Part shown: one piece after another, positions 6,380 through 59,695 of the stretch
How positions within the stretch are numbered: position 1 is the stretch's first letter
Layout: the number at the start of each line of letters is the position of its first letter
NCBI RefSeq assembly: GCF_000003855.2
Contig: NW_003101667.1
Location: 1,103,638 to 1,167,637, forward strand
From: Blastomyces gilchristii SLH14081
Taxonomy: Eukaryota > Ascomycota > Eurotiomycetes > Onygenales > Ajellomycetaceae
DNA length: 64,000 nt
Direction of reading: 5' to 3'
The notes under the pieces: generated by a model
Seen by the model: the letters and a program-made list of their open reading frames with translations, nothing else
Databases searched by the model: none
Told to the model about the DNA's origin: nothing
Translations under genes and position numbers: made by a program

Positions 6380-7080
6380 CAGCAGCGCTCCACCACGAAC
6401 TCGCTCAATTTTTCGAATAAGAACCCGCCGATAGATCCATCGAAAAGCCCTCGATCATACGAGCATTTTGACCCCATCGCCGACCGCATACCCCGTGTGG
6501 TGGTGGAGTTATCCAGCCAAATGTGAACCAGACGTTGTTTGAAACTCCTGTGTGAGATTATCCCTCATTCACCCCTACCACACCACAACCCCGGGCCAAA
6601 GTGCCATACAAATTGTAAGGCGAAGAGACATAGCCATATGCGCCAATCTTCTTGATTTTGGAAGATCCCCAATCTGTAATTGTGGAGATATCTGAGAAGC
6701 AACTTCCACGAAAACCCTGTCTATCTTTGATGTTCCAAAACATCAACGCCAAGTCCCACCCACGTACCGCCCTTCCCAATCTGGCCCACCTCCGGCAGAA
6801 AAATACAAAAAGATACCTCGGCAATAGTATCAAGCACATAATCAACGGACACATCTGAAGTGCATCCTCCGCGAAAAACCCTCTCTGTCTTTGGTGTACC
6901 AAGACATCAACAACAAGTCCCATCCTTGTACCACCCCTTCCGATCTGGCCCATCCCCGGCAGAAAAATACAAAGAGATACCTCAGCAACTGTACTCAATA
7001 CATAATCAGCAGACACAATAACTATAAAATCAGTATATTCCAAGGTCTGACTGAGCCTTTGATCCCTGCACAGTGAGATA
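6380..7080 (+). promoter_or_regulatory. GC-rich LINE 5' region with tandem units
   Basis: The first ~650 bp of LINE-B are GC-balanced and rich in CpG, unlike the rest of the element. Two related units (about 6735-6850 and 6900-7015) share 'TCTGGCCCA...CGGCAGAAAAATACAAA.AGATACCTC'-type blocks. The same region is at the 5' end of LINE-C (about 56690-57344). By analogy with promoter monomers of other LINEs, this is likely the element's promoter; that role is inferred. The open frames crossing it are fortuitous. Confidence 0.6.
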
Positions 7081-8052: not shown

Positions 8053-9405
8053 ATGAGTTCAAAAATACACTCAGTTGATGTGGAAAAAGATGCTTTCTCA
8101 AATGCTATTCCTGAGATTGAAATTCTGAAGAGAAGAAAGAAAGAAGAAATAGAGCAACAACAAGTTCTTGAAATACAGAAACTTGAAAAAGCAAGCAAGA
8201 TTCTTAGAAAGCAGTGTCTGAGTGAGATGAATGAAGAAGTTCTGTTAATTCTTCATACTCAGGCTAGACAACTACAGGAGATGATCAAGTTTAAACTTGG
8301 AATTTCAAACACAGTTTAAAAAACATTGAAAATTCCTAGTATAATCACTGACTCATTATTTTACTCTTCTTCTTTTTCTACCTCTTCTTCTTCTTTAAAT
8401 CAGAAGAAAATATATGCTCAAGCAGCTGAATCTACTGTCTCTAAATCTGCTATCTCAAAATCTGCTCAAAATTCTGAGAAAACTGAGAAGAATACTGCTC
8501 ATACTTCTATTCATAAAAAAGTGAAGAAAAAAATGCAAAAAGAGAAAAACTTTTAAATCTTCAGAAATAGAAGACTTATTCTCAAAGTCTCAAATTAGAA
8601 CATCTTACAAAGAAACAAGCTAAACTCAAATCTCATTTTCAGAATCAGAAATGAAATTAATCAGCAGTTCTTTTCACAGTTGATGACTGATATTGAAGTT
8701 CAAAAACTAGTTATAGCTTCAATTGAGTCATCATTCTTTGAAAACTTCATCATTCTGACTACTATGTCTGAATTCAGTGCAGAATTCCTTATTCAGAATG
8801 AGAATCTCTGAAAATCAGCAGTAGAATCTTTGCTAAACACAATAATTCTATCTAAGAGAGATGAAAAGTGAGACAAATTCATTCTTCATGATATTTCAGT
8901 TGAAATTTTTGACTGTGAAGAAGGAATACTACTTCTCAAAAATGAATTAGAAAAATACAACTCTATTTAACTAAGAAAAGAGCCTGTATGACTAAATTCA
9001 ATTGAGTTCAGACAAAGTAAAAGAAATGCCTCTGTTCTAGTATATATAAAGAGCCCCGGTGGCCGAATGTGTAATGCGGCCACCCGGTAGCGCCTTGGCT
9101 TGGAAACCAAGGCGCGTGGGTTTCGAAATCTGCAGGAAATACATTAAATCCAGAACTCAAGCAACTTAAAATTCTATGAAGACGAGATGTACAATTTGCT
9201 TCAATGAATCACTCTATGTTCCTGGGCTGGGAAGTTATTATCGCATGTATCTAATTGTCACTCCTTTGTATTTTCCTTATGTTCTTGTTATCTTGGGCGT
9301 GGTCTCAACACCCTGTATTTCCTCCTGTATAATCAACACTTGACCTGTATTTAACATCACGCAAGGACTCATCATAAGCTCCGCTTGCATATGAGTATAA
9401 TGGAA

Positions 9406-9437
<32 letters not shown>

Positions 9438-10049: not shown

Positions 10050-10078
10050 ATTCTACTCTATCTCTACTCTCTTTTAGT

Positions 10079-13000
10079 ATGAATATATAACAAAAACAAT
10101 AAAAAAAGTTTAAAAACTCTTCAAAAATCACATTTATTTAAAATAATGTGAATAGAAACTCAAATTACATTTATTCTTGTCTTCAAATTATATTTGAATA
10201 AAAAGTTGATTTTATACTGCTTCAGGAACTGAATTTTGATGCTGAGTAAAAATACATTATTTCTCATTCAAGCTACTACTGCTTTCTATCTCAAAAGTCT
10301 GAGATAAAGTCAAGAGTAGTAATCTATGAAAGAAAGAGATCAAGATATCAATTTAATCTAAGATTTAATATTATATCTGACCCTGATATTCTGATGAGTG
10401 ATATTATAGATAAAGAGAATGAGTTTGATATTATACAGCTCATAAATATCTATAATGAAAAGTCATTGAAGAAAAATAACAATATCTGAACAATTGATAG
10501 AGAATTTCTGAACATAACTTCATTAAAAAACTCTATAATTGCAGAAGATTTCAATGCATATCATCTCTGATAAAATTCAGCATGCAAGAGAGCAGTAAGA
10601 GCTGATAATCTGATTGAATAAACCTTTAAGCATTCAATAGATTTAGTTAATATGTCTGATCAACAAACATTCTTTAGAAAAGACATGAAACAGAAATCTA
10701 TTATAGATCTAATCTTTATATCACAAAATCTAATGAAAAAAAGACTTGTAAACTGATTTATTGATTCAAATAAGACATCAGAATCAGATCATGAGATTAT
10801 TCAATTTAATATTGAACTGAGTGAAAAACAAATGAGTGAAAATCCTCTTCTCTCTAATCAGTTTAACTTTGAAAAAGCTGATTGAAAAGCAGTTGAAGAA
10901 AGTATAAAACTGTTAAAATCTGAAAGACAGAGTGAGCTATATTGAAATTCTGATCAAGATATCTCAAATGAAATGCTTGAGAATAGAGTGAAGCTCATTA
11001 CATCTATTATTCTAATAAGTGTTAGAGATAATATTTCAAAGAGAAAATCTTCTGAGTATTCAAAACCTTGATGAAATGAGAATATCTCATCTAAAAGAAA
11101 AGAATTAGCTATTACTAGAAGAGATTGAAAGAATGATATAATATCTGATAAAGAGTTCAAAGCTGTCAGAAATGAATATTTTTCAGATATTAAAAGAGCT
11201 AAAACAGACTGCTGAAATAAATTTCTTGAAGAAGTATAAGAAAAGGAAGTTTTTAAAGCTTTTAACTATACTAAAACAAGAAGTGTAGCAAAACTTTCAG
11301 CCTTAGAATATGAGTTTCAGAATGAATCATATACAGTAAACACTTTTGAGAAAAAATGTCAAGCTTTTATAAGAATTCTCTTTCAAAACTCATCAGATTC
11401 AGATTCAGAGAAAGAGAATATATCACTTCTCAACTACATTGATGAAAATGACTGGGAATAGCCTGATCTTATATAAGATGAATTAGAGTTAGCTATCTTC
11501 TCAAGTTCTGTTAAAACTACTGCAGGGCCTGATTCAATTAATCACTTAATTATTTAAAATACATATTCCTACTTAAAGAATGAATATTTTGAGCTCTTTT
11601 TCAATCTCTTGAAAAATGAATATCATTCTGAATGCTGGAGAGAAGTCACTGAAGTGATTCTTGTAAAATCTAATAGAAAGACATTAATTTCTAAGTCATA
11701 TAGAGTAATATCTCTATTAAACTGTCTAGAAAAGGTTTTGAAAAAGATAATAGCTACTTAACTATCTTTTATAAGCTCTATTAATAAGTCTCTTTTATTT
11801 AGTGAATAAATGAGAGATAGAAAACAATGTTCTATAATTGACACTGTTCTCTCAGTTATTTATAATATTCAAATAGTAAAGCATGAAGATCTGATCTCAA
11901 CTACAGTTTTTATTGATATAAAAGAAGCATTTGATTATGTTTCAAAGTCAAAGTTAATTCAGACTTTGAAGATGTTAAAACTGTCACTTTCTCTAATAAA
12001 ATGAGTTAACTATTTTATATCTAACAGAATCATACAACTTTTCTTTGATGGAGTGAAATAAGACAAGACTGAGATAAAAATAGAAGTACTATAAGAATCT
12101 TCAATCTCATTTATTTTATTTGCAATATACACTGCATATCTATTCAAAGATAGAAATATGAAAATAGTGTGATCTCTGAGTTATATAGATGATATTAATC
12201 TAGTCTACAGCTCAAAAACTATCAAAGAGAATTTGAAAGTGATTGAAAAAGCTGCAAAGAAAATCTTTGTCAGAGCAGATATCAATTAAATTCAATTTAA
12301 TATGAATAAAACTGAGTTAATTCATTTCTTTTCTAGATTCAATGAGAAAGAACTATCCCTAACTCTTTTAAATAGAGAGATTAAACTCAGTTTAAATGTC
12401 AAATGATTAGAAGTATAGTTAAACTTCAAGTTGAATTTTAAATATCATATTCAACAAAGAACTGTCAAGGCAGAAAGACTATTGAACAACATAATCAGAC
12501 TATCAAATACAGAGAGAGGTCTATTCTTCCAGGCTATGAGACAGTTATATATACTCTGCATTACCTCAGTAGCTGATTATGAAGTTCAAGTTTGATGAAA
12601 TAATTAAGGAAATTTCACTGAACTCTTTCAAAGTCTGCAAAACAGAGCTTTGAGAAGAATTCTGAGAGCATTCAAATCATCTTCTATTAAAGTAATGAAA
12701 ATTGAAGCTTCAATTCTTTCTTCTGCTATTAGATTTGAAAAGACCTGTATGAACTATACTCTGAGAGTTATAAAGATGAGCTTAAATTATATAATCAGAG
12801 AAAGAGTCTCTTCTTCATTTTCATCAATTAACTCTGGAAATGAACTGGATTAGAATAGATTTCTTGATTGAAATGAAAATAATTCTTCAAAGAAAATGCC
12901 TTCTCAACTGTACAGACTGTGCACCCCGGTGGCCGAATGGTTAATGCGGCCACCCGGTAGCACCTTGGCGTGGGAAACCAAGGCGCGTGGGTTCGGAACC

Positions 13001-13274
13001 CGCAGGGAATACATTAAATCCGGAACTCAAGCACCTCAGGTTTCTAATAAATACAGAGGTGTACAAATCGCTCCAATGAATCGCTCTATGTTCCTGGGCT
13101 GGGAAGTTATTATCGCATGTATCTAATTGTCACTCCTTTGTATTTTCCTATGTTCTTGTTATCTTGGCGTGGTCTCAACACCTGTATTTCCTCCTGTATA
13201 ATCAACACTTGACCTGTATTTAACATCACGCAAGGACTCATCATAAGCTCCGCTTGCATATGAGTATAATGGAA

Positions 13275-13306
<32 letters not shown>

Positions 13307-14748: not shown

Positions 14749-14804
14749 TTAGATGTCATAGTCTCTGACTGCATACATCTATAATTGAAGAATAATAATA
14801 ATAA

Positions 14805-17400: not shown

Positions 17401-18384
17401 CTTCATGAATTCTATCATTGTTAGAGAATATTAAACTTCTATTTTAAGCATTCAATAAGATGTCTTGTTCAGATAGTCAGATAAGTTCTAGCATAAGATT
17501 ATAGTCAAGATTATCAACTTCATATGCATAGACATCTTCACATTGATGTTCTCTGATATCTATGTTTAGTTTCATCATGTAACAGGTGTGAATGTCTTTT
17601 AAATCATCAAATTCTGCAAGAAGTCAGAGTCTTGATAAGAGAATACACTGAAGATTATAATGTCTTATAACTGAAGATTTAATCATTGCATAATGACATA
17701 GACTGCTGTCTATCATAATCTTCATATTATACATGTTATCTATCACAGTAGATACAAGAATTGTATTCATTGTCATTTTCTCTTCAAATTGTTGTCATTC
17801 AACCTCTTTAAGCTCCTGCTTGTGAATTTGAACAGAAGCTAATCTTTTCCCTCTTTCATCAGAGTATTCTCATAGTTATCTTTCAAATCTTTCTCTAATG
17901 TAACATGATTGATGTGAACAGACACTGATCTGTTCTTTAAGCAAGAAGATACTGATCTTTCTCTTGAGTGAGAAGACATGTAGACTGATTAGCAGTTGAA
18001 AGCAATGTGTTCTGATCAGTTATAATTAATGCATATCTCTCATTGACATCAGTCAGCAACTTCTTCAGAAGTGATTCCAGAAACTTGAAAGTCTGTTCAG
18101 ACAGCAGAGACCCTTGCTTATATATAGATATTCAAGTCTACTCAGTTCATAGCATCTGCATCATTGTTGTTATTCCTCATTACAGATGTATGAGTAACTG
18201 AGATGTAATATCTTCTATCACTGTTCTGTATACTCTTGAGCTTGATAAGACAGTCATTCAATGTTCAGAGTTGTACACAGAAATCTTCATAAGTCTCGTC
18301 TTTGTCTACACTTATAAGAATCTGTAAGAGTTTGAAAGTTAATGTCTTCTTAAGTATACTGATCTTTATTCAATTCTCTCAAGA
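17400..18384 (-). pseudogene. Gypsy-A gag/protease remnant
   Basis: Minus-strand reading gives the C-terminal gag with a zinc knuckle around 17.99-18.07 kb (CINCN.SEHIAFNC, C-x2-C-x4-H-x4-C in the better preserved Gypsy-D copy) and the aspartic protease region at about 17.4-17.8 kb. Gypsy-B is inserted at 18385 with a CAAGA target duplication (18380-18384); gag continues at 25511. Confidence 0.65.
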
Positions 18385-18641
18385 TGTAAGAAATCCCGCT
18401 CCTCGCGGATTCTTTACCCCTATTCCTATCTCTCGCGTAACCAATAGGGCTAGCGGCCCTTGACTACACACAACTATATAGACTGGAGTTCGCGAATACT
18501 ATTTGCAACTCAGCTTGAATGCTATTATATACTTGATCTCTATATTTATCTTTCTACTGTGAACACTTCTAGTAGTTAACAGTACATATCACATCAAGCT
18601 GCAAACACCTGAATAATCACCTGCAAGCACTTATTCTTACA
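18385..18641 (+). repeat. Gypsy-B 5' LTR
   Basis: 257 bp. The first ~110 bp (U3) keep CpG and CC runs (CCCGCTCCTCGCGG); the last ~110 bp have lost them (ACTGTGAAC where the 3' LTR has ACCGCGAAC). TATA-like ACTATATAGACTGG lies at about 18471-18484. Confidence 0.95.
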
Positions 18642-18673
18642 TTTCAAGCTCAGTCAGTCAGCAATCACCTGTT

Positions 18674-19635
18674 ATGACTGGAAGAACTAGAAACTCGCAT
18701 GCTCCAACCCCTGCGAACCCTACTGCAGGCACCCAGGAGCAGCCACCTGAACCATGGATAATCCCTGTGGAAGAAGTCCCAGGGGACTTACCAACCACTC
18801 GCGGGACACCATCCTCTGCATCTGTGACAGAGGAACCCTCCGAACCCATGAACAAACCAATCTCAGTGAAGAACATTCTTGAGCATCTCTTACAGAATCA
18901 AGCTATTTTTCTACAAGGAATGCTTGCTGCCTGCAAACACTCTCAAACTGAGTCTCTAGACATGATCTCCAGAGACACCTGCAAACTGAAAAGAAACTTT
19001 CTCAAGTCATGATCACTTAAGGTCATCTATCAAACCACAATCTATAAAAGCTTTTGCAAGTTTGCATTTGAAATTGACTTGCAAACCCAGCTGTGTGACA
19101 TGAAAGATGAAGAAGCTGTCATCTATGCAATGACAGGCCTCTATTACACTGAAGCCAAGAACTGGTTGAACCATCTAGGGAATGATCATGAGAGATCCCG
19201 ATGATCTGTTCTCAAGACCTATCTAGAGAACAAGTTGAGGGACTCCGCGAGCCAGACAGAGAACACCTGGGCCGCGATCACCAACATTAGAATAAAGGCA
19301 TGCAGGACAAGCTCATTGAGCAAGGCTCTAAGCCCTTGGCTCTGAAGGAACTGATGACTCTCATCCATCACTTGCAGATCACTGTGAGAGCCACAGACCC
19401 GCAGAGAGTGGACCATCAACCAGCTTCACAAGGGCCAGGACAACAGAGAACAGGTTTGTCAGGAAAAGATGACAAGACACAGAGAGATTCATGTCTGACT
19501 GCTGAGCAGAAAGAGAGAGCTTCACAAGCTTCTGTGAACAGAGTGTATAACAGAGAGATTAAGGAAAAGAGACTCTGCTTCATCTGTTCTAAATCAGAAC
19601 ATCTCTGTGCAAACTGTCTGAACAAATCAAAATAG
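18674..19635 (+). pseudogene. Gypsy-B gag (capsid and zinc knuckle), disrupted
   Basis: Opens MTGRTRNSHAPTPANPTAG, a Pro/Thr-rich N-terminus, 33 bp after the LTR. The first open stretch ends at 19012 with TGA in place of Trp. Capsid-like sequence continues around 19020-19300 ('AMTGLYYTEAKNWLNHLGN'). The second open stretch (19300-19635) ends with a zinc knuckle CFICSKSEHLCANC at 19576-19617, an intact C-x2-C-x4-H-x4-C. The 5' half is much less mutated than the rest of the element. The minus-strand frames here are shadows. Confidence 0.85.
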
Positions 19636-22600
19636 GAATTTGAGAAGTCATGGACAGAGTCAGCAACAGCCTTCTTAAGAACCTTGAAGCTGACACCTGA
19701 ATCTGTTACTCTCTCAATGAAAATGCTTGCTTGTGAGAAGAGACTGCACTGCAGTACTGCTGTCCTGCAAGCATGGAAAGCATTGATGAACTCAGGATCT
19801 CAGGTCACTGTGATGTTTCTAAAGCTTGTGAAGCAAATGAGCTGAAAGATGAAGACTGAGAACCTGCTCTTATAATAAGCAGAGTGTGAGAACTCAGACC
19901 TGAGAACTGAGAGACTTACAAGAGTCACCTTTGAATTGCAAGATCTCTCTGAAACCTGAAGAAGATTTATGAAAACTGTAATTATTGCAGACATCACAGA
20001 TGACATATATTTAAGACTTGTATGACTTCAAAGACATAATTCACACATAGCTGTCTGTGAGTCAGGTTTATACTTCTGATCAGTATTGACAGACTCACTC
20101 ACAGAGATAGAAGCAGTTAATGCTGCAGAGTTGATTAGAGAAGACAAGCTCATCTATGTAATAACTTTACAAGTGTCTGAGAATCTTATGATTATGAAAA
20201 CTGAGCTTCAGATATCAGAGGAATACTGAGATCTCACAGAGATGTTCAGCTCAGCTAAGACAGCTGAGCTTTCTTCTCACTGTGAGAAGAATCTGATAAT
20301 AGATTTGATAGAAGAACAGAAACTCTTCTGAGAATCAATCTATAAGCTCTCTCATCACAAGACAGAGGTCTTGCAAACCTATGTGAAGAAGAATCTGAAG
20401 AATGACTTCATCTGATCTTCACAGGTCTTCACAAAAGTCTCTGTGATATTTATAAAGAAGAAGAATGAAGATCTCAGATTATATGTAGACTATTATAATC
20501 TAAACTCTAAGATAATAAAGAGTCACTATTCTCTGTCTCTGATTGAGAATGTAATCAATCATCTCATGAAAGCTGTTATATTCATATAACTGAATATGAT
20601 CAATGTATATACACAGCTGCAAATACAGTCTGAGAATGAATGAAAGACTGTCTTTAGAACTGCACTGAAATTGTTTGAATATCTAGTGATGTCTTTTGAT
20701 CTGACTAATACTCTCACAGTATTTCAGTCTTTCATCAATAAAACACTTCATGTATATCTGAATGTCTTCATGATAATATATCTGAATGATGTGATGATGT
20801 ATTTCATGAAGAAGAAAGAACACACTGAGCATGTGTGAAGTGTGTTAAAGGTCTTAGATGAGGCAGAACTGTATGTTAAGCTTATAAAGTGCAACTTCAG
20901 TGCTCACTGAATTAATTTCCTAGAATATGTAATCACTGTGAATAATATTCAGATGAAATCTTCACAGATTAAAACTATTCTATCATGACTGAAGTCAACT
21001 AGTATTCATGAGATTCAGATCTTTCTGAGCTTTGTGAATTTCTATAGACAGTTTATCTTTGTATTCATGAGAATCTTCTTAGTTCTTACAGACATGCTGA
21101 AGAATGAAAATAAGAAGAAGTCATTCTATGAATAAAGAATGAAAAGGTTGTTGAGAAGAAAGAACTGTAAGAACTTTCTTATCTCAGAAGTTCACAGAGT
21201 CTTTGCAAGATTGAAACAGATATTCATGAATGCAGTGATACTGTTTCACTTTGATTTCTTGCTCTTAACTAGATTGAAGACAGATGTCTTCTTCTTTACA
21301 ATTTCAGAAATAGTCTTATAACTATAGTCAAATGAGAACTGAGTTTCAGTGGCCTTTTTCTCACAGAAGATGCAACCTGTAGAGATCAACTATGACATTC
21401 ATGATTAGAAGCTTCTCATGATAGTGAAATTCTTCTATCACTGATATCACTACTTTAAGAACCTCATGATAGTGATTACTGTTAGAACTGATCATGACAG
21501 CTTGAAACAGTTTACTTCAATCAAGAAACTCTCACAGCAGCAGGTTCACTGAGCTCAGAGACTGAGTGAGTTCTGATTCAAGATAGAATATATCAAGGAA
21601 ACTAAGAACTCAGCAGACAGACTCTCTCACAGACCAGACTATGTTAAGAAGATCAGGGCAACAGACACAGAGAAGCTAGAGAAGATAGAAAAGCTTCATG
21701 AGATGCTCAGACTGAGTGTTACAAAGAGATTGACTGAAGAGTCTCTCAATCCCTCATAAGAGAAGAAAGAGAAGAGAGAAGAGAAGTCTGTACAACTACT
21801 CTCTATGACACTGAGAGTCAACACTCTGGAAATCTCTGTGAGAATTCTTGAAGAGAGTATCTATAATCTGAAGAGTTTGCAGGCTTTGAGAAGCACTGTG
21901 AAAGACCTGATATAAGAGAAAACAGAGTATAAGTCTTCACAAGATCTTCTATTCAGATTGTCTGAACTACAACTGGAGAATGAATATGCTCAGTATATTC
22001 AGAAACTGCTCACAGCAGGGATCAACCCTGCAGAAATAAAGAATTGAAGAGACTTAAATAATCTCTTATGAAGAGAGGGCTGAATTTATATGCCTGTAAA
22101 TGAGTTTCTATGTGTAGAACTTATTAAAAGGTATCATGACTCTTCTCTAGCAGGTCATTTTACAGACACTAGAACTCATGAGCTGCTCACAAGGAAATAC
22201 TTCTGACTGAAGATGCAAGGACTTGTAAAGAAGATAGTGAATTCTTATGCTGTTTATCAGGATTTGCAGGTAGTGCAGTTCAGATTATATAAAGAACTTA
22301 CTTCTCTACTCATCTCACAGAAACCTTGGAAACAGCTAGGAATGAATACTCTTGTGAGCCTCTCTGAAAGCAAGGACATATATAATGCCTGCTTTAACAG
22401 TGTGCTGATGATAGTGAATTACTTCATTAAGATGGCACACTTTATATTCATCTGCAAGGACTTGAAGTCAAAGAATTTGACTCACATCTTTGTCTGCAAT
22501 GTGATCTGATTGCATGAGTTGCCTGCAAATATTGTCTTAGATAGAGAATCAATCTTCACAGAAGAGTTCTGATCTGATCTGATAACTATACTGAAGATCT

Positions 22601-23400
22601 CATGAGATCTAAGCATGACTTTTCATTAACAGACAGATGATCAGACAGAACATCTGATAAGTATATTGAAACAGTATCTGCAGTGCTTTATCAATTACAA
22701 TCAGAATGACTGAGTGTATTAATTATCACTTATGAAGTTTATATACAACAACTCAAAGTATGTCAGTACAGATAAAACTCTCTTTGAGATACTCACTGAG
22801 ACTCATCTGTGAATAATCTTGATGAACCTGTGAGAGTACACTATAGAGTGTGATGATGTCTGTGAATGAGCTGAGAGAATTCAGAAGATTCAGGAGAAAG
22901 TCTGTGAATTCTTGAGAAAGACTCAAGAGTATCAGAAGAGATACTATGACTTCAAGTATATTATGAAGAGTTTTAAGAAAGATGATAGAGTCTGACTGAG
23001 TCTAGAAAATATCATCACATAGAGATTTAGTAAGAAGCTGAATCTCTTGTAGACAGAATCTTGTAAGATTATGAAGAAAGTTAGCTCACAGTTCTACAGA
23101 TTGAAACTGTTATCTGAGTTACAGATATACAATATTTTTCATATCTCTTTGCTCTGTGAATATAAGAAATTCTCAGAAGAGAACTCTATGACTCATCACT
23201 CTGTCTGCAAAGTACTAGAGAGTGAAAGAGAATATCAGATCAAAGAGATTATTGACTCAGAGAAGTGAGATCATGAGCTCTGATTCAAGGTTCAGTGATA
23301 AGAGTATTCTGACAAGATGAATGAGTTCACTTGAGAATCATCTGAGCAGATAAGATATCTGTAGAAGCTGAGACATGACTTTCATACTGTGAATTCTGAT
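19636..23400 (+). pseudogene. Gypsy-B pol (protease, RT, RNase H, integrase, chromodomain), disrupted
   Basis: Domains read across stops: protease-like 'NSGSQVTVMFL' near 19790 and RT from 20.4 kb ('LRLYVDYYNLNSKI', catalytic YLNDVM where YLDD is expected, near 20777). RNase H follows at 21.2-21.6 kb, the integrase HHCC region at 22.13-22.28 kb ('RYHDSSLAGHF'), the integrase core at 22.3-22.8 kb, and the C-terminal barrel ('LQIYNIFHISLL') at 23.1 kb. A chromodomain start (YQIKEIIDSEK) lies at about 23233-23268. The Asp-to-Asn change in the RT active site alone would kill activity. Confidence 0.85.
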
Positions 23401-25248
23401 AAGCTAGAATGATATAGTCTTCACTAAGAACCTGATTGTGATAAAGACATTAACACTGTTATTTGCAAACCCTAGTCTATAAGATGATGAATTTCTACTG
23501 AGATGAACAGTCTGCAGTGTACATAAGAGAAGAAGAAAACATATTCTTATTAAAGCTAAAAAACAAGAAAATAAACAGAACTGTGAATGCAATTTAGAGA
23601 TTAATAAAGAAAAAATAAAGAAAACTCACACTCACATTATTAATATTCATAACACTCAATCTCTTCACAACTATCAATTTCTTTCTTCAAAGAAGTAGAG
23701 AGTATCATATCTGTGATACAGACAATTATTGCATTTGACATGAAGACTGTCAGAAATGCACAGACTTCAGAGAAGCCAGACATCAGAGTGTATACAGTTG
23801 CAGCAGAGTCTTGAAGACTGATCATCTGTGTGTGTGATCAGATACTTCTCATGAAGCTGTGTCTGCTCTTTCAGTTATGCTGAAGTATTCAGCTCAGAAA
23901 CAATGAAGACACAGAGAGAGGGCTTATCTACTCAGGCCAACTTTCATCATGAATTCATAGCATTCACATTGCCTTGACTACTCAGATTTTGCAGGTACTC
24001 AGGGACTCATCTCTCATTGACAATGAGATTGTGGAAATGCGCTGTGGTGTGAGGACCATTGATAGAGAACCTAGGCATATTCATATATACCTGGTCAGAG
24101 ATTGTGCAGGCAGGGAAGAGATGATCATAGGCCTGCAGAGCTGCAGAAGACACTGGCAACACCAGAAGCTTTGCAAGAACTGTCAGCTAGAATCTGTAAG
24201 AAATTACTTGTGAGAAGACTTATAGCAAAGAGAGGAACTGTGCTGCTTGAAGCCAGGGACTGGCCTGGGGAAGAGATGAGGTGAGCTGCTGGCCTGAAGA
24301 TCAGGTGCAGTGATGAGACTGAGAGAGATGAAGACATGATTGTGAGCAGCAGTGTTCCTGCTTCATCAGCCAGTAAAAAGTGATTAGAGGAGTTGCAGAG
24401 ACACTCATAAGAAGCTCAGCAGTGGCCAGACATTATGTACAAAGATGTTGAAATTGAAAAAATTTTTATTCTTGAGAAGTTCTTGAATCAATATATGAAC
24501 ATTGTCAGGAACACTCTCTCTCTATCATCTGAGTGAAAACACTTCACAGATGAATAAGAATACTCACAGTTTGTGAGAATGAGAGCTGTTACAGAAAAAG
24601 GAAAAAGAAGATGAGATTTTACAGACAGATCTGAGATATTTATACTACTCTAGAGAGGTTTACTTACACTGTGAGTGATTCTGTGAAACAGCCAGATCAC
24701 TCTAGTAAACAAGAGTGATTGTGAATCACAGACCTGAATCTTTCTATGTGATTATAAAGAGTGATTGCAGACTGTGAATATCTTGATTCTACAATTCTAC
24801 AGAGTTGATGAAAGAATGGAAAATTCCTCACAATTCTACAGTGTTAAAGAGCAATGATTTGTGAGAATGAATGAAAGATCAACTCATGAATGTTTCTCTT
24901 TGATGAGAGTGATCTCACAGAGAGTGATTCATCTGTGAGATGAATCTATGTAATGATCACACAAGAATCTTGTGAAAATGATTGAGAGTCAATCAGAACC
25001 CTTCTGTATGAAAGGTGTGAGATAAATCTGTGTGATAGTCAGAGAAGAATCTGTAGGTCACAAAGAATCTCACAGAACAAGGAACTGAGTGACAGACTCT
25101 TTTCTCTTTATGATAACAAGGGATTTTTCCTCACTGAGGTTTTTTACAGATATGAAGGATTTTTAGTGAGTATCACTGCAGTGCTGAGCTGACTATGAAG
25201 TCACTCAGTGAAAGGCTTCACAGATGAAGTCTTAGAGAGGGGGAAGTA
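23401..25248 (+). other. Gypsy-B 3' internal region, content unknown
   Basis: About 1.85 kb between the chromodomain and the 3' LTR. An open stretch at 23974-24213 (79 residues) and an overlapping one at 24102-24284 are the most protein-like pieces. I do not recognise them, and the minus strand is also open at 24125-24337 and 23404-23825. Composition between 23.95 and 24.4 kb is less AT-rich than its surroundings. It could be a captured host sequence, an extra ORF, or non-coding. Confidence 0.5.
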
Positions 25249-25505
25249 TGTAAGAAATCCTGCTTCTCACAGATTCTTTATCTCTATTCCTATCTCTTGT
25301 ATAATCAATAGAGCTAGTGGCCCTTGGCTACACACAACTATATAGACTGGAGTTCGCAAATACTATTCATAACTCAGCTTGAATACTATTATACACTTAA
25401 TCTCTACATTTATCTTCCTACCGCGAACACTTCTAGTAGTTAACAGTACATATCACGCCAAGCTGCAAACACCTGAATAATCGCCTGCGACCACTTATTC
25501 TTACA
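25249..25505 (+). repeat. Gypsy-B 3' LTR
   Basis: 257 bp. The mutation pattern is the reverse of the 5' LTR: the first half is mutated (CCTGCTTCTCACAG), while the second half keeps ACCGCGAAC, CACGCCAAG and CGCCTGCGACC. Confidence 0.95.
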
Positions 25506-26378
25506 CAAGATTGATCATCTACTTCTAGAATCTTAGTGTCAAAGTCAGAGATAAGTATTATGAGAGAAGTGTTTCTCTGTCAGATACTCTGTAATCAGTC
25601 TAATACTTTCTGTTGCATAGCAGTGTCTCAGAACAGAATATCAAGATATTTGATGATATTGTCAGATATTTGCAATACTGGTTCACATGCTTTCATTCAT
25701 GAATGAAACTTCTGTTTCATGCGATCTTTCAATTGTTCATTGATATATCAACCTTGATTGATTAGTGAATCAATGACATCTTCATCTACACTTAGTTTCA
25801 CAAGCATTTCCAGCCTTCATGATGAGTAGAGAGTGAGATCAGAAGTATTAAAATATGTGAGAGCATCTACGCATTTCTTCAGCACTTGTATTGTGTTTAT
25901 ATTCAATTCTGTCAGTGTTAAAATTACAGAGATTTCTTGTTGAGTTAATTATTGAATTTTCTCATATTGATGTTGTTGATTTGCATGCATATCAGCTATT
26001 TATTATTATTGTAATTTCAACATTGCTCAGAGTCACTGTGATATTGCATCTATGCTTGCATTCAAGAGTTCTCTCATGTTATCATTAGACATGATTATAT
26101 TATTCATTGAATGTATGATATCTGTGCAATCTGAAGAAGTGTAATTATATGAATATCTTATACATCTAGAGTGTCAGAACTCTCAGATCTTTCACTGATA
26201 TTCTCTTTGTAAGATCTTGTTACAGAGTTAGAATAACTGATGAGTAAGCTTCTATCTGAGAACTCAGTGTTTACTTAACTGATTGCTCATTTTTCTATTT
26301 CTTATGCATTATTACATGTTCAGATATCTTCTCAATAAATAATCATTTCTAATAAGAAGACAATGAACATTTTTCAAG
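25506..26378 (-). pseudogene. Gypsy-A gag N-terminal part
   Basis: Continuation of Gypsy-A gag between Gypsy-B and the 5' LTR. It is nearly co-linear with Gypsy-D 58.56-59.38 kb, which confirms that the two flanks of Gypsy-B belong together. No intact reading frame; domains were not individually recognised. The plus-strand open frame at 25891-26088 is antisense. Confidence 0.65.
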
Positions 26379-28133: not shown

Positions 28134-30714
28134 GGTTATAGCCCGGATGACACGTTTTTCTTTTTAGAATGTTACACCAACATTTTCACGCGGGTAGTTC
28201 ACCTTTTTTGAAAAGACTCTCACTTCTTACTAGAGATATTTCATTCTCCCTGAATTCACCGGTCAGCATATTGATATTCTTTTTTTTTTCAAAGAGAAGA
28301 TGCGTTCTTCATTGTGAAGAACATCACCTGTTTTTACATATCTAGAAGAAGCAGAGCTATCTCAATATAAGTAATACATCTGTTACTTCAGAGTTCAGCT
28401 CAAGGCTCAGAATCACTCACTCTACTAGATATCTTATTGATAGAATAATCACTTATTATGAGAAGAATTCCGAGTTGCAAGATGAGAGTGATGTCAGTTT
28501 TCACCAGAGTATGAAATTTAATAATGAGACAATAGAAGTGCTTCAGAATAAAGAAAAGCAGAGTTAATATTCATCTGTAGAATCTGTTCATTTCAACTCA
28601 ATAAATTCTTCACTATTTCTCATCTTCAGAATGCTAACATTTAATGATAATCTGAATTAACTCATCTATTGTATCACAGACAATCTTATAAATCTTATAC
28701 AGATAATGCTTCAGAATCAACTGACTGTAACTGTATTTATATAACATCTTACTACATCTGTCTCTGTATAAAGCTTATAAGATATCATAAGAGATCAGTT
28801 GTAGAAATATTAGAAGAAAGTTAAATATACTCTAGATATCAAATCAGTGACTATATTTAACAGCTCTAATTATAAAGCCTGATGTATTAATATGTTAACT
28901 GATACAGAAGTTATTGATGAAACTGACATTCTATTGAAGACTCAATGAGAATTCTCTTTTACATATCATATTAATTTTAAGAAGTGAAAGATTCATTTCA
29001 AGTCTCTATACAGATATATACTGTCAAGCCTTGTTGAAAACCTTCAAACTACTATTAAAATCTTAGAAGCTGATAATGTTGTGACTCTGTGAGACAAGAT
29101 GAATGTTGAATACATAATATCACTGACTGAAGAACATGTTAACATCTTTAAGAAATTGACAAGATTACAGGTCAAGAATGATGATTATCTTATTTTTCAG
29201 ATATATTTTCACTATCTTATTACTTATTACAAAGAGCTCTGTCAGAGTACTGAAGATGTATATTATAACCTTTTTCTGAACAATCTACAAGATTATCAAA
29301 GATTATTTGTCAAGACATATCTGAATGAGTTTTTCTTCACTGATTAAGAACTCATTGTTAACATTGATATCAATGATTTGATGAAGAAACTGATCAATTG
29401 TACATTTCAGAAGATCATCAGTGAATTAAAAAAAGCAGGCTCAGACTGACTCTGAGACTGTGAAAAAGGATGAGAATAAAGGCTCAGATGTACAGAAGTG
29501 CATTCACTGTAAAAGAGATGAATATACAGTTAACAGGTATTTCATCTTACACTCTGATAAAAAGAGAAAGAAGAAGAACAAAAAGAAAGACAAGAAGAAT
29601 GATGATAAAAAGAAAGAGAAGAAGAATGACTTGATAAGTTCTCAATCATTAGCAAATGCAGTAATTACAAAGATTGAGTTCTATTTCTCTTTCACAGTCA
29701 TCAGAAAAGCATTTTCTAGATCTTGATATTTAGACACATGTATAAGTCTGAATATAATTAGTGAGCTTTATTCTTTTTCAAATATCAAACCTTTTAATAA
29801 TAACATCGATGTCAATTCTACAACTAAGAGAACTGAGTTTGTCAAGAAGATTGAAACTGTCATCTTGAAGATTGAGAGTAATAATGTTAACTTGCAGAGT
29901 GTTCACTATATCTCTAATATTACAGTTAACCTGCTCTCATTTGCAAAGCTTGAAGATCAGTGATTTCAATTTACATTGCCTTTTACTATTCTCTTATTTT
30001 TCATTTGCAAAGCTCTGAATAATGTCATTTTTCATGCAGTTCAGATCACTTAGAACAACATATATAAGATCACTAAACAGAAGTTCAATGAGAATTCTAA
30101 TCATCTAAGTAAGGCAGTCAAGTATATTATAATGTCTCATAAGTACAATTTTGACTGAAAAGTTGATTTTTCTGTGACTGCTGCTACTACTGTTAATACT
30201 ATTAATTCTGCAGACACACAGATATCAAAGATATCAAAGACTCTTTTAAATTGATATTATAATCTTAAGCCTGTTCATGCTGATGCTATAATTACTATAA
30301 CTAAGAATCTTCATATCATAGTCACAATTAAAGATTCTAAGACTAAGTTCTTTTATAATGAATGTGTCAAGACAGGTATAACATGAGATTATTTGAAAAC
30401 ATCAATGCCTAGATCTATTAGACTCATTGAAAAGATTCATATTAATCTTGTAGATAATAGATATATATTGAAAGACCTGTCTGATTACTCTTTAGAGTTC
30501 TATCAGAAAATTAAATACTAAATACTTATCATCTGTGATGCAACTTAATATCATTGAGTATATTTTTTAAAGTTCAAGAATGAAGCTGTTCAATACTTTG
30601 AGTTATGACTCAGATTTATAGATAATCTTGATTATACTGCTCCTGCTTTTCTACAGACTGATATTAACAGTGTTTTTCAATTCACATATATGCACACAGT
30701 TATGAATTTATATA

Positions 30715-31091
30715 TTGCCACGGTGGCCGAATGGTTAATGCGGCCACCCAGTAGCACCTTGGTGTGGGAAACCAAGGCGCGTGGGTTCGAAACCCGCAGG
30801 GGATACATTAAATCCGGAACTCAAGCACCTCAGGTTCCTAATAAATACTGAGGTGTACAAATCACTCCAATGAATTGCTCTATGTTCCTGGGCTGGGAAG
30901 TTATTATCGCATGTATCTAATTGTCACTCCTTTGTATTTTCCTATGTTCTTGTTATCTTGGTGTGGTCTCAACACCTGTATTTCCTCCTGTATAACCAAC
31001 ACTTGACCTGTATTTAACATCACGCAAGGACTCATTATAAGCTCCGCTTGCATATGAGTATAATGAAAGAATAATAATAATAATAATAATA
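30715..31091 (+). mobile_element. tRNA-derived SINE, copy 3
   Basis: 377 bp, flanked by a perfect 13-bp duplication ATGAATTTATATA (30702-30714, 31092-31104) in Copia-A pol. A box TGGCCGAATGG at 30724-30734 and a perfect B box GGTTCGAAACC at 30784-30794. Ends in (AAT)n. The best preserved head of the three copies. Confidence 0.95.
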
Positions 31092-32879
31092 ATGAATTTA
31101 TATAGTATCAAATTAGAATTAACAATACTATATTTATCACATCAAGATAATGTTTCTAAGTGTGAGATTCAGACTATTATAAGACAGATTAAAGCTGCTC
31201 TTTTAAAAGATAATCTCTCTAAGAAGTTCTGAGTAGATGTTCTAGAGACAGTTATTGCAATAATTAATAATACTCTTACATCTACAGTTCTTTACAACTC
31301 AAAATTCTGACCCTCTACTGCAGAGACTTCTGTGATTTTAAGTTTATATAAGATGTCTTAATGTGCTCTTACAAATGCTTCACTGAATGTAAAGCATTTT
31401 TATCAATTGAGTATAAAGGTTTTTGCTCAGTTGCATAAATCTCAAAAGTCTGTGAATAAGCTTTCTTTATATGCTGATTTCTATTATATCATTGAATTCA
31501 GTGACACATTGATCTATCATCTATGAAATCTCAAATCTGACAAGATTATTGCCAGTAGTAATATGAGGTTTCTGATTGCTGAAAAATTGAAATCAGCTAT
31601 ATCTGTGACACTCACTAATTATATCACTGAATCTATTAATTATATCACTGAACTGAAACCTGGTATTTATCTAATTAATAATAAAGATGCTTCTGACATT
31701 GATAATCTGAATTCTATATAATTGCAGTCTGCAAAATTGCTGACTACATATACTTCAAGTTCTATTACAGATAATCTCTCAAAATTCTATAAGAATGTCA
31801 CATCACAGTTAGAGAAGATAGAGAATTATTGAAAGAAGTTTATATAATATAAGATTATCAATCTGAAGAGTTATAATATATGAAGTTTAATGCTGAAATC
31901 TGATGTTCTAAAGAGTGAATTAACTACTTCAGATTATTAAGTGTTTCTTGAGAAAGATAGGCTTACAGATCTGAATACTGATTCTGATAATATTCTTAGA
32001 AAATTATGTTAAGTGATTTATAATAACTGACTTAAGAAGAATTCTAGAGAAGAGATCTATACTTCTGTCATCACTGATACTGCTAATTATATTCTTTTTA
32101 TCATAGCAGTACTACATGATTGAACACTCTGTTAAGTGAATATAGTAATAATATATCTGCATGAGTATCTCACTAAGAAGGTCTATATAAGATAATTCAT
32201 CAGATTTGAGACAGGTTCACTGAAGATACTTATCTGCATAATTAAGAGTAGTTCATACAGTCTAAACTCTGTGATAAAGATCTGATATAATTACTTAACA
32301 GCTCTGTTGAGTGATCTTGAATTTGCAGTCAGTGTCTATGATTCAGTACTCTGATATCATTCATCTAAACATTATCTATATATAATAATTTACATTGATA
32401 ATTTCAACGTTCTATATGAAGTCTCTGAGAATGCTAATTGATTAGTAGATATACTTAGTAAGAAATTGAAAGTCAAGAATCTATATTAATCAACTAAGTA
32501 TTTGAGTATAAAAGTTAATTATTTTAACAAAGAAATTGAGTTAATACATCATCAATATATTAAATGTCTTATTAAAGATTTTTATCTTAATAACATAGTT
32601 GTTATCAGAACACTAATGAAGAATGATTTCTGTATAGATAATTTCTCAATATCTGAGAAAGAGACTAGTTTTACAATTTAGTAATATTAATATAATATAA
32701 GCTGTTTACAGTATCTTGCAGTTAAAACACACTCTGATATCACTTACACTGTCTCACTACTCACTTAACAGAATATTGATTCAATATCTCAATATTGAAA
32801 GACTCTGTTACATATTATACATTATTTAGAAGAGATACTGAATGTAGGCATTTACTACAGACACAGCTCACACACTGAT

Positions 32880-46362: not shown

Positions 46363-46672
46363 TGTAAGAGGCCTACACTGAATAGATTGATATTATATTG
46401 ATAGGTCTTATATAACAAAGAGAAAAACATTAGAGAAGAAAAAGAAAGAGAAAGTGTAAGAATCAGCAATTGAAGTGAATATTTATACATGTATGTGATG
46501 GTGTACACAGTGAAGCTTCAGAGTGGAAGAATCTATACATATTCATAGCAGCTGAGAATCAGTAATTGAGAATGGCTGAGAATTGAGGTATACACATTTG
46601 AGAATGAAGTGATTGAAATCTGTGAAGTGTAACAGAATAGTCTATATAATTGATCAGGTGCAGCTCATCACA
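46363..46672 (-). repeat. Gypsy-D 3' LTR
   Basis: 310 bp. Its U3 side (toward 46672) has lost almost every CpG that the 5' LTR keeps. The polypurine tract is at 46673-46691 (minus strand tctgaaaagagagggttaa). Confidence 0.93.
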
Positions 46673-49653
46673 TTAACCCTCTCTTTTCAGAAACAGTTCT
46701 TATCAGTCAAGAGCCTCTGTTTTGAATAATGCAGAACTCAGAGTTCAGGTCAGATGATCATATCTGACTCATTTCATGAGATATTGTCAGCTGCGGCTGT
46801 GAAGTCTCTCATCAAGAATATTCTCAATCTCTCACTCAAGCTCATTATCTTCTTCTATGATACCTGGTGGCTGTCAGTTGAAAGTCAGTTGAGAAGGAAA
46901 CAGGTCAGTGACAGTGCAGCAGAGCAAGCTTGTGTGAAAGACATCATGAATCTCTGATAGTGTGTTAAGACAGTAGTTGTGACTATCTAGAACTTCTATC
47001 ACTTTATACTTGACATGGCAGTAATCCAGCATACAAGATGAATATGTAGTTTATATATTCTTAAGATTCAATCATATCAGATCTTCTATCTTATATTGTT
47101 CAGTGAGGTCTTGATAAACATTGATTTGATCTTCTTAATTCTGTTTAGCACTTGCCATGAAGACTTCTGCTCAATCACAGATATCTCAGAGTTTTATTAC
47201 TATATTATCAGTGATCTGAATCAGACTGCAGAGATTTGATATGAAATGTGTGATTTCTAGAAGATTCAGTACTTTTATATGATATTCATGTGTGAGAAAG
47301 AATGAGCTTATATCTATTAAAACAGCATCTTAATCATTGATAGCAATCTCTGTATGTAGAAGAAGATCATGTCAATCATCTTATAAGTGATTGCAGAACT
47401 TATAAAGATAATTCTTCACAGTCTGAATTATCTGCTCTGATGCATCATTAGTCTCAGAGTGATAGACAGTTGACAGACAGTGTGTAATCTTGAGAACTTG
47501 ACAGATTCTTGTTCAGAGAGTACTCACAAATTGACAGTCTTAATCTGATACTATAGATCTCAGTAATTCATGCATCTGATAGAATAAGCTCTGTAGAAAA
47601 GCTTCAGTGACTTGTTCAGTATTCATTTTATTACAAGGTTTCAATATTACATCTTTACTCAATTGATTCACAATGACCAGAATGTTTCTACAACTCTTAC
47701 TCTCAGAGAGATTGATAGTGAAGTTAATTATCACATCTCACCAGATTCTATCAGAGATATTGAGTGATTTCAGCAGATCTTTTCTACAGTTCTTCTATAA
47801 GATGATAGAAGAACAATGATTACAGTTTCAGATGAAGTGTCTGATACTGTTTAATATCTCAGACTAGTAGAATTCTCAGAAGATCATTCTATACAGTTAT
47901 TCACAGCCTGAATAATCAGTTATATACAAATCATGCATCTCTTGCATTATCTGAGTGTGTAAGAATTTGAAGTGAGAGACTCAGCATCATTTATGAAATT
48001 GTAGAATATTATTGTCATCAATTGAATATTCTGAGATGTCAGTTTTTATACATAGTTCTGAAGAGAATTGAGATGCTTCTTGATATACTGCTTTGATAAG
48101 TGCTTGAAGAAGTTCATCAGTTTGAGCTGTTATATATCATAATTCATCTAGTGTAGGTTCAGAAGAAGTTGAGATATTAATGTCAGTGTCAGTGTCAGTT
48201 CAGAGAGAGAGTGTTCTAATTAAAGAAGCATGTATAGTGTTATGAGTTGTTTCATCTTGATCAACTAATATCTTCAGATCTAGAAGTCAGTGTTCTTGAT
48301 TTATTCAATGAGTATCTGCTACATCAGAAGGCATATCTTGCTCTTATTATAAGAGAGCATCTGTCATTGAGTTCTGGCTGCTGGGATAATAGTGTATTAT
48401 AAAATGAAAGCAGCTTAAGAACTCAGATCATCATATCTGTCATTCAGTGAGTTTATAAGTAGTTGTGAAGTATTTGAGATTCTTATAATCTGTGATTATC
48501 TCAAATTTGAAGACACTTCAGAGTTCAGAGTTTCATTCTTCTAAACAGTGTATGATCACAAGAAGTTCCTTGTTATAGATCTCATAATTGCATTCAGCAG
48601 GACTCAGTTTCTTAGATATGAAGACATATGATCATAGAATATCTTCATCATTATATTGCAATATCACTTCTCCTGTTATATAGCTAGAGAAATCAGCCTT
48701 AACAACTGTCTTGTGATCAGAATCAAATGTTATCAGCAGAGAGGTATTAATAAACATCTTCTTCATCTATATAAATGCAGCTTCAGCATTCACTGATCAT
48801 TGAAATACTGAGTCTTTCTTAGTGAGATCTGTAAGTGATCTCATGATATCTGAGAAGTTTTATATAAATCACTGATAGAAGTTAGCAAATTCAATGAAGC
48901 TTTATACATCTTTCACAGTACATGAAGCTTTTTAACTCTTAACTTCAAAATCACACTTGTCAATATCAATTGATAGTTCTGCTTCTCATAGTCATTGTAA
49001 TACTCTTCATACATGCTCTTGATACTCTTTTCTGAATTCATCAGTGAAGATGAGAATATCATCTAAATAAGCAGATACAAACTTATCAAGAAAATCTCAG
49101 AGTACTCAGTTGATATACTTCTGAAATGTACTGAGAGTGTTAGTCAGTTCAAAGAGTGTGACTATTTATTCAAAGAGATTATAATGTGTTTAAAATGCTG
49201 TAAGCTATTCATCTTCTTCAGTGATATAAATCTTATGAAATGCAGTGATGATATCTAGCTTTGTAAATTATTGAGCTCATCTGATTCATGCTAGGGTTTC
49301 ATTGATGAGAGATAAGAGATATCAATCTTTCTTTATCAATCTGTTCAGACCTCAGTAGTTCACACAGAATCAAAGTTCTTCATCTGGCTTCTTTACAAAG
49401 AGAATAGAAGCTGCAGTGAAAGAGTTACTAATATATATGAATTTCTTATCTAACAGATCATTGAGTGTCTTCTGAAGAAGAAGAAGTTCATCTCAAGACA
49501 TATTATAAAGAGGGTCTTACAGTGACTCAGAGTTCTTATCATTCTTCTTTTCTAACTTAATACTGTGATTCACTCCTGAGTCTTATAAAGAAGATATATT
49601 CATAATGTTATCTTATCAGAAGACATCTAGGTATTCATGATATTATTGAGAGA
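46673..49653 (-). pseudogene. Gypsy-D pol: RT, RNase H, integrase, chromodomain remnant
   Basis: The RT catalytic block AYLDDILIF is readable at about 49045-49075. The integrase core is open at 47540-47734 (MIINFTINLSESKSCRNILV..., first catalytic region, ending IVSD). The integrase tail and chromodomain lie at 46.95-46.78 kb. Other frames are broken by TGA at Trp. The plus-strand frame 46754-46957 is antisense. Confidence 0.8.
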
Positions 49654-59385: not shown

Positions 59386-59695
59386 TGTAAGAGGCCTACA
59401 CTGAATAGATCAGTATTATATTGATAGGTCTTATATAACAAAGAGAAAAATGTTAGAGAAGGAAAAGAAAGAGAAAGTGCAAGAATCAGTGATTGAAGTG
59501 GATATTTATATGCATATGTAGTGGTGTACACAGTGGAGCTTCGGAGCGGAAGAATCTATACGCGTTTGTGGTGGCTGAGGATCAGCGATTGAGAATGGCC
59601 GAGAATCGGGGCATACGTGTTTGAGAATGAAGCGGTTGGAATCTGTGAAGTGTAACGGAATAGTCTATATGATTGATCGGGCGCAGCCCGCCACA
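59386..59695 (-). repeat. Gypsy-D 5' LTR
   Basis: 310 bp. The outer ~165 bp (59530-59695, U3) keep many CpG (CTTCGGAGCGG, CGCGTTTG, GGGCGCAGCCCGCC); the inner part is mutated. TATA-like ATATTTATATG near 59502-59512. Confidence 0.93.

Follow-up and report, generated by a model that had tools for sequence, protein, structure and literature searches.

RIP in Neurospora crassa mutates C to T on both strands, lets short repeats escape and, in compound synthetic repeats, places its mutations around the repeat centre; 155 bp of homology can suffice as a trigger, and in one construct about 130 bp at one end are mutation-poor (PMC4858203, for the parts of the article available). The same direction, escape of short repeats and centring are seen in the elements described here, which differ from the N. 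crassa case in that natural LTR pairs are mutated reciprocally and in that two of three families (M and C) are spared more at the 5' than at the 3' edge. Ascobolus MIP is likewise a homology-directed cytosine modification of repeats, but it is methylation and not mutation (PMC4858203 and PMC4165359, available in part). In Podospora, the LTRs of full crapaud copies are hit by RIP while solo or fragment LTRs mostly escape, likely by size, and 5'/3' LTR reciprocity is not described in the accessible portion of that report (PMC10787394). De novo RIP in Zymoseptoria tritici resembles our case in being uneven along TEs, with LTR ends standing apart; fresh RIP, however, is concentrated there in the distal 5% of TEs (PMC10294615, in the portion available), the opposite of the accumulated pattern found here. 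That distal concentration counts against the explanation preferred below, though saturated interiors could account for it. A literature search, conducted mainly outside subscription journals and on partly available texts, found no earlier report of the reciprocal LTR pattern.

The window analysed in this work is a 64,000-nucleotide stretch of Blastomyces gilchristii DNA, and the focal element that it contains (family F) has the following features.

18380..18384, no strand: left target-site duplication, CAAGA (5 bp)
18385..18641, plus strand: 5' LTR of the Ty3/Gypsy element, spared over its outer ~110 bp and mutated further in
18475..18482, plus strand: TATA-like box TATATAGA at LTR base 91, a motif match alone
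18642..25248, plus strand: mutated internal region, oriented by its plus-strand motifs
25249..25505, plus strand: 3' LTR, mutated over its inner ~150 bp and spared farther out
25506..25510, no strand: right target-site duplication, CAAGA (5 bp)

The LTRs, of 257 bp each with termini TGTAAG...CTTACA, the target-site duplication and two plus-strand motifs found by eye, a zinc-knuckle-like CX2CX4HX4C stretch at 19576 and an RT-like YLNDV stretch in the internal region, mark this as a Ty3/Gypsy element; Pfam searches of its stop-free pieces gave weak, unrelated matches and no relevant hit. CpG o/e is 0-0.13 throughout the interior (19001-25000). The two LTRs differ by 28 transitions, all in the RIP direction, and by one transversion (base 243). 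As the original prediction had it, the changes in U3 (about 110 bp) are transitions that lie nearly all in the 3' LTR (bases 1-110: 13 sites, the 5' LTR having one, at base 79); past about base 145 the polarity flips, the 5' LTR being mutated at 9 sites and the 3' LTR at one (base 151) over bases 146-241. Bases 120-137 are of mixed polarity (1 and 3 sites).

Reciprocal LTR mutation is real and general, and not a product of chance. Family F was studied as a set of 29 aligned LTR pairs, the focal one included, from copies selected for their resemblance to the 3' end of the focal element; of the 29 5' regions retrieved, one (L040, partner L011) lacked an LTR where one was expected and was left out. 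All 29 pairs have a 5-bp target-site duplication by manual reading, after a one-base shift in 28 cases (the unshifted automatic test recovered the focal one only), and when pooled they show the same polarity. Among discordant sites, the mutation lies in the 5' LTR at 1 of 118 in bases 1-25, at 22 of 56 in bases 101-125 and at 67 of 71 in bases 226-250. Individual pairs show more noise: a single switch, placed where it fits best, accounts for 75% to 100% of a pair's discordant sites, at positions ranging from 21 to 210. The discordance fraction climbs smoothly along the LTR, with a change spread over more than 100 bp, and the slope is significant inside U3 alone (LR chi2 31.6, n=318) and reaches chi2 38.1 inside R-U5; the switch just downstream of the TATA-like box that had been proposed for the focal pair is thus replaced by a gradient. 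Sparing in F is symmetric (logit-linear reach of 125 bp on the left and 116 bp on the right), and the family has a uniform U3 (in 56 LTRs, bases 1-150 show a gap rate of 0.000).

The reciprocal pattern is also present in a second Gypsy family (M, 11 pairs) and in a Copia family (C, 7 pairs). Family M is represented in the window by the following features.

46363..46675, minus strand: true 3' LTR; 0 CpG in this copy
47456..47698, minus strand: integrase (rve) remnant that sets the orientation of M (E 1.7e-4; 27.6 bits, under the curated cut-off of 32.6)
59386..59698, minus strand: true 5' LTR; 13 CpG kept, all within the outer ~165 bp

The integrase remnant corresponds to C16:1151093-1151335 on the minus strand of the contig and is accompanied by a weak SH3_Tf2-1 match on the same strand. 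M is strongly asymmetric, with about 160 bp spared at the 5' edge and about 30 bp at the 3' edge. At the true 5' edge CpG is intact in 10 of 11 copies at 10 bp and in 7 of 11 at 157 bp, unevenly in between (1 of 11 at 81 bp), while the CpGs at 170, 186 and 188 bp of the 5' LTR are intact in 0, 1 and 1 of 11, the TATA lying downstream at 189. At the true 3' edge the figures are 7 of 11 at 14 bp and 5 of 11 at 26 bp; from there to 126 bp no site reaches the required minimum of two intact CpG. C leans as M does, and in these two families a bias favours the upstream end. The slope inside U3 is also found in M (chi2 14.6); it reaches significance neither in C nor inside the R-U5 of M. Four of the seven 5' LTRs of C (pairs B, D, E and G) differ at bases ~86-91 from their own 3' LTR, which would represent post-insertion hits about 50 bp upstream of the TATA. 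A further candidate Copia, at C50, has 149-bp LTRs that are 100% identical and unmutated, and is uninformative.

Transitions outnumber transversions by 663 to 3 in the 29 F pairs and by 444 to 25 in the 11 M pairs, an excess of C-to-T and G-to-A changes between copies that points to a targeted mutator and not to slow decay. In the cases examined, the ~382-bp repeat described below (best 40 hits) and the CpG content of the gene block, mutation is limited to repeats above a minimum length. A polarity gradient is present at element edges in all three families. In F LTRs the contexts mutated are CpG (228 of 507, rate 0.45), CpC (170 of 553, 0.31), CpA (85 of 657, 0.13) and CpT (18 of 958, 0.02), over few distinct sites, an order CpG > CpC > CpA >> CpT that differs from N. 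crassa RIP. Since the N. crassa-type CpA preference is found neither in these LTRs (few distinct sites) nor in the indices of the window, we call the process RIP-like and not N. crassa-type RIP; CpA preference is not shared by all fungi. The enzyme may be a methyltransferase of the RID/Masc1 type: PF00145, the DNA C5-methylase domain, has four matches at three loci in the genome.

CpG is also kept in the following repeats of the window.

6395..7000, plus strand: LINE D copy b (6395-14809), 5' end; CpG kept over ~600 bp
9054..9436, plus strand: SINE-like ~382-bp repeat, 13 CpG kept
12924..13305, plus strand: SINE-like ~382-bp repeat, 16 CpG kept
30711..31093, plus strand: third copy of the SINE-like ~382-bp repeat, 11 CpG kept
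56739..57344, minus strand: LINE D copy a (49653-57344), 5' end; CpG kept over ~600 bp

The best 40 genome hits of the SINE-like repeat at 12924..13305, itself included, are 98-100% identical, and over these hits this high-copy repeat escapes mutation; the three window copies are mutually just 89-96.5% identical. CpG o/e is 0.54-0.94 in the gene block at 39-45 kb, versus about 0 across most of the repeats. The F, M and LINE stretches mostly have TA/AT of ~0.7 and (CA+TG)/(AC+GT) of ~1.5, from which the AT-rich stretches at 34-38 and 60-63 kb depart (0.83-1.07 and 0.99-1.48). A tRNA scan of the 64-kb window gave none, and a 600-aa ORF had no Pfam match.

These observations are best read, with more confidence than doubt, as the trace of a RIP-like C-to-T mutator that is directed by homology and loses strength where homology ends. 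Such a mutator would attack both strands of repeated DNA and act poorly near the end of a homology stretch, so that each retrotransposon would keep its outermost ~30-160 bp and the mutation rate would increase inward from the element edge; the two LTR copies would be mutated in opposite halves because U3 is outermost in the 5' LTR and U5 in the 3' LTR. Homology, rather than transcription or chromatin, would then set the edge. The original prediction had offered RIP-like sparing of about 110-140 bp per edge as one of two readings; it is the better of the two, with the correction that sparing is graded and unequal at the two ends of M and C. In support, F, with its uniform U3, is symmetric, and M, with an indel-variable U3, has long 5' sparing, which may come from U3 length variants that shift inward the point at which shared homology effectively ends. 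Across the wider M family the gap rate is 0.24, 0.14 and 0.12 in bases 51-100, 101-160 and 161-210, against 0.005 in bases 1-50 and 0.013-0.015 in bases 211-313, with indels in 7 of 12 LTRs in bases 51-100. The copies sampled from F, M and C (the most similar ones) show no excess of transversions in U3 by which its divergence could explain the 5' sparing; this counts against a homology edge, yet in the wider M family U3 does diverge through indels. The asymmetry of M and the divergence among the three SINE-like copies also count against such an edge, as does the lack in F of any LTR clean at both edges (0 of 97 listed on contigs C1-C6, from 97 left and 85 right edges), a difference from crapaud, since solo LTRs should be clean; in this listing clean solo LTRs of F are rare or absent. 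An LTR pair is a built-in ruler, two identical copies in which a given base is near the edge in one and deep inside in the other, and provides a natural in vivo readout, without crosses, of the way in which a mutator aimed at repeats detects that homology has ended. Elements of these families cannot be soundly dated by LTR divergence, and fragments from their edges (5' LTR U3 and 3' LTR U5) are still recognisable in otherwise erased copies.

The second reading of the original prediction, a mutator, RNA-guided or transcription-coupled, for which the mutated interval is the transcribed one, running from the R of the 5' LTR to that of the 3' LTR, appears quite unlikely to us, and its sharp form is unsupported. 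The 50% crossover, counted from the 5' edge, does track the TATA, being at ~120 bp in F (TATA at 91), ~200-225 bp in M (TATA at 189; the two preceding bins have just 18 and 4 discordant sites) and somewhere in 125-188 bp in C (TATA at 140). These are not the constant distance, whatever the U3 length, that had been named as speaking against transcription, and a crossover that moves with U3 length, as it does in all three families, counts against a homology edge; U3 length is confounded with LTR length over the three families (257, 271-295 and 313 bp), so the shift neither proves nor excludes a transcription link. With six parameters each, a step at TATA+30 (NLL 372.6) beats a per-family symmetric-edge ramp (NLL 397.3); separate ramps (NLL 376.7, nine parameters) are no better than that step, and free steps are (357.7, nine). 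A common gradient for all families (four parameters, AIC 754.7) nevertheless beats the TATA+30 step (five parameters, AIC 779.7), and is itself bettered by per-family free steps (AIC 747.5). The symmetric fixed-distance edge model is adequate for F and rejected for M and C; the sharp TATA+30 step was rejected as well, with an NLL in F of 206.1 versus 194.7 for a free step, and conflicts with the gradient inside U3. Indeed, no sharp end is found at the TSS (placed from TATA-like motifs) or poly(A) site: the gradient runs within U3 of F and M, mutated 5' LTRs already make up more than a third of the discordant sites at bases 101-125 of F, M has lost its CpGs at 170-188 bp, upstream of the TATA, and C has apparent 5' LTR hits upstream of its own in four of seven pairs (by eye). 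In addition, LINE D is spared over ~600 bp at its 5' end, where a LINE transcript is expected to begin. A looser version, in which transcription would set at least the 5' limit through an RNA- or transcription-guided cytosine mutator working inward from about the promoter, with ~50-100 bp of upstream bleed and sparing that follows U3 length, seems to us equally unlikely; were the crossover really to track promoters, RIP linked to transcription would become testable.

Active promoter chromatin, open or hypomethylated, could instead shield the 5' LTR and the LINE 5' ends from a RIP-like mutator, with some edge sparing at all ends. This is in line with the longer sparing at the 5' end of M, C and the LINE, but the identical U3 of the 3' LTR is unprotected, F is nearly symmetric, the LINE is also explained by 5' truncation, and its 3' end may never have had CpG; we hold this explanation to be unlikely, if slightly less so than a transcript-bounded mutator. 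A process without RIP, in which methylated CpG of silent repeats deaminates slowly and methylation fades at the edges, would account for the near-zero CpG o/e of repeats and for the indices of ~0.7 and ~1.5, values which on the known thresholds are those of CpG-decay products rather than of classical CpA RIP. It is improbable, and a little more so than the transcription-based readings, because the transition:transversion ratio in F is too lopsided and because CpC and CpA are also mutated and CpT is not (few sites). As for an artefact of alignment, assembly or sampling, the selection of copies by their similarity to the focal 3' end is a point in its favour, but we give it practically no credence: the target-site duplications are intact, the three families agree, and so do exact-pattern counts that are independent of similarity to the other end of the focal element. 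These counts gave 197 clean left and 162 clean right edges of F for 0 in the reversed control, and among the edges listed on contigs C1-C6, 17 clean left and right edges are spaced one element length apart.

The two 257-bp LTRs of the focal Ty3/Gypsy element (family F; 18385–25505, plus strand; TSD CAAGA) differ by 28 transitions and one transversion, and this transition excess points to a fast, targeted process. The derived base lies in the 3′ LTR at 17 of the transitions and in the 5′ LTR at 11. The original prediction that the two LTRs are mutated in opposite halves describes this pair accurately overall, and the best single switch, placed at bases 137–158, explains 25 of the 28 transitions, but base 79 is already reversed and bases 120–151 are mixed.

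This reciprocal pattern is confirmed and general, being found in 29 family F pairs, in exact clean-edge strings and in two other families, M (Gypsy) and C (Copia). For family F, the best 40 of 1632 candidate 3′ ends scored gave 30 loci, focal element included; 5′ regions were taken for the 29 other loci, of which 28 were paired and one was dropped, making 29 pairs with the focal one and excluding ten further 3′ ends among the matches listed. Each CpG site was counted once, and TG/CA double hits were excluded. The mutation lies in the 5′ LTR at 1/118 discordant sites in bases 1–25, then at 8/76, 4/66 and 5/16, at 22/56 in bases 101–125, then 12/19, at 54/82 in bases 151–175, then 10/11 and 47/49, and finally at 67/71 (226–250) and 2/2 (251–257). 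Single pairs are noisier: the best switch fits 12/16 sites in the worst pair, 19/19 and 21/21 in the top two, and its position ranges from 21 to 210. In the 5′ LTR, CpG is intact in 29/29 copies at 13 bp, 20/29 at 50, 14/29 at 52, 28/29 at 70, 17/29 at 107, 13/29 at 109 and 0/29 at 175; in the 3′ LTR, by distance to the right edge, it is intact in 27/29 at 17 bp, 26/29 at 23, 11/29 at 31, 16/29 at 49 and 4/29 at 81.

A similarity-independent check used genome counts of the exact clean-edge strings (197 left, 162 right) with a reversed control (0). Among the first 100 matches listed for each side, those on contigs C1–C6 (97 left, 85 right) include no LTR with both edges clean; in 17 cases a left and a right clean edge, oriented as in the element, are separated by 7210–7221 bp, and the sole nearby match to inner–inner spacing, offset 6073 bp, misfits the element. 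For the remaining clean edges there, no clean partner lies one element length away, which truncated copies and an exact-match test would lead one to expect. The clean-edge offset is about 7213 bp in other family F elements genome-wide versus 7089 bp in the focal copy; the others being about 124 bp longer, the focal element probably carries a small internal deletion.

Family M (window 46363–59698) was oriented by a minus-strand integrase remnant (E 1.7e-4, under the curated family cut-off) together with a weak SH3_Tf2-1 hit, likewise on the minus strand, which make 59386–59698 its 5′ LTR. In eleven pairs (the window's own and ten out of eleven further pairs matched by coordinates), the true 5′ LTR keeps CpG to about 157 bp, with intact sites in 10/11 copies at 10 bp, 8/11 at 43, 4/11 at 66, 1/11 at 81, 10/11 at 92, 7/11 at 157, 0/11 at 170 and 1/11 at both 186 and 188; the true 3′ LTR keeps CpG only near its edge (7/11 at 14 bp, 4/11 at 17, 5/11 at 26). 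A TATA-like motif, TATAAATA, lies at base 189, so that the losses at 170–188 are upstream of it. Three additional 5′ LTRs have CpG within the first ~150 bp alone (5, 16 and 10 sites), and six 3′ LTRs besides the window copy at 46363 have 0–3 in that interval; this comparison covers the LTRs assignable to one side, all but two. In family C (seven pairs out of a larger number present), the TATA is at 140, or at 164 where a 24-bp duplication is present, and mutations fall in the 5′ LTR at 5/44 discordant sites upstream of it and 17/22 downstream. This duplication is a tandem one in the Copia U3 of a few copies (L121:1610–1904, L122); the majority form lacks it.

Models were compared by AIC on 942 discordant sites. 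Against a null of 1223.4, AIC was 781.1 for a shared exponential, 767.4 for a shared linear gradient, 754.7 for separate left and right linear gradients and 757.6 for separate exponentials, whose parameters diverged in the fit; step models gave 779.7 (TATA+30 with free 3′ limits), 783.3 (common fixed distance) and 747.5 (free per family). Family-specific linear fits (summed NLL 353.6, 12 parameters) reached 731, which indicates that the families differ, with left/right reaches of 125/116 (F), 247/176 with weak right amplitude (M) and 189/24 (C). In rate space, NLL was 397.3 for symmetric ramps and 372.6 for TATA steps with 6 parameters, and 376.7 for separate ramps and 357.7 for free steps with 9. 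A gradient is required by the family F data. Anchoring to the promoter competes well as a description of where the left and right gradients cross, but not as a sharp boundary. Symmetric sparing at both edges is ruled out by families M and C.

Mutated family F sites rank CpG (228/507) > CpC (170/553) > CpA (85/657) >> CpT (18/958), with few distinct sites, whereas Neurospora prefers CpA; the window's dinucleotide indices match CpG loss in most repeat stretches. Judged from these sequence contexts, the mutator appears RIP-like rather than textbook CpA RIP. The genome has four C5-methylase matches at three loci, candidates for RID/DIM-2-type enzymes:
C1:2818034, DNA C5-methylase domain
C10:1955341, DNA C5-methylase domain
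C11:898335, DNA C5-methylase domain
Blastomyces LTR elements are described as susceptible to RIP, which would make their estimated ages too high (PMC11540331), and a Gypsy expansion is described (PMC4595289).

Of the two readings originally offered, we favour sparing of element edges by a RIP-like mutator as the probable one. The sparing (~30–160 bp) is comparable in size to Neurospora figures, where a homology of only 155 bp can trigger RIP, compound synthetic repeats carry their mutations around the repeat centre, and one construct was mutation-poor over ~130 bp at one end (PMC4858203). An effect of homology edges would also cover the behaviour of two further features:
9054–9436, 12924–13305 and 30711–31093, SINE-like repeats of ~382 bp with (AAT)n at the end
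6395–7000 (plus) and 56739–57344 (minus), CpG-rich LINE D 5′ ends of ~600 bp with internal tandem-like repeats, in CpG-poor surroundings
The SINE-like repeats apparently escape the mutator by size: the best 40 of 1139 candidates are 98–100% identical. The three window copies share 89–96.5% identity. CpG retention at LINE 5′ ends, which would follow from 5′ truncation, falls gradually (13, 6, 3, 6, 5, 2, 1 and 12, 2, 2, 5, 4, 2, 0 per 100 bp) and is weaker in a third, partial copy (L008); at the 3′ end, which may have lacked CpG from the outset, it was seen in 0/5 matches. For family M, copies with unlike U3s would share homology only from R inward, while the U3 of the 3′ LTR would have shared sequence on both flanks; the indel-rich U3 (7/12 LTRs) may thus account for the longer 5′ sparing, and the homogeneous U3 and symmetric pattern of family F agree with this account. 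Edge sparing is opposed by the free-step fits and by the missing LTRs clean at both edges. The other reading, a mutator bounded by the transcript, is weakened and now seems improbable, yet stays alive, given that the position of the crossover tracks the length of U3 in 3/3 families, across which U3, LTR and R+U5 lengths are confounded.

Length polymorphism by indels among family M copies affects U3 (LTR bases 51–210, reference 59386–59698), R–U5 being nearly indel-free:
L027, L071, L092 and L097, loci with family M LTRs
4152, 5689 and 26873, family M LTRs in the window
The LINE assignment comes from a single match to Exo_endo_phos_2 within the element body (E 1.4e-5, 25.4 bits, slightly under the cut-off of 27.4). 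LINE D ends 3′ in a TAA tail resembling the (AAT)n end of the SINE-like repeats, and its copy a contains an assembly gap of 100 N (55769–55868). Within the 74.8-Mb genome, the window (C16:1103638–1167637) is mostly repeat DNA with CpG o/e ~0; the exception is a gene block at 39–45 kb, with a 600-aa ORF (41016–42818, minus strand) that shares 92% identity with a protein of Blastomyces percursus and 87% with a B. parvus protein. Blastomyces belongs to the Onygenales. One copy of an 82-bp repeat pair (28053–28134 and 39743–39824, 91% identity) borders this block. A dispersed, possibly MITE-like repeat of ~400 bp has copies 91–96% identical (L038:410–811, L090:1106–1500, L093:1876–2256).
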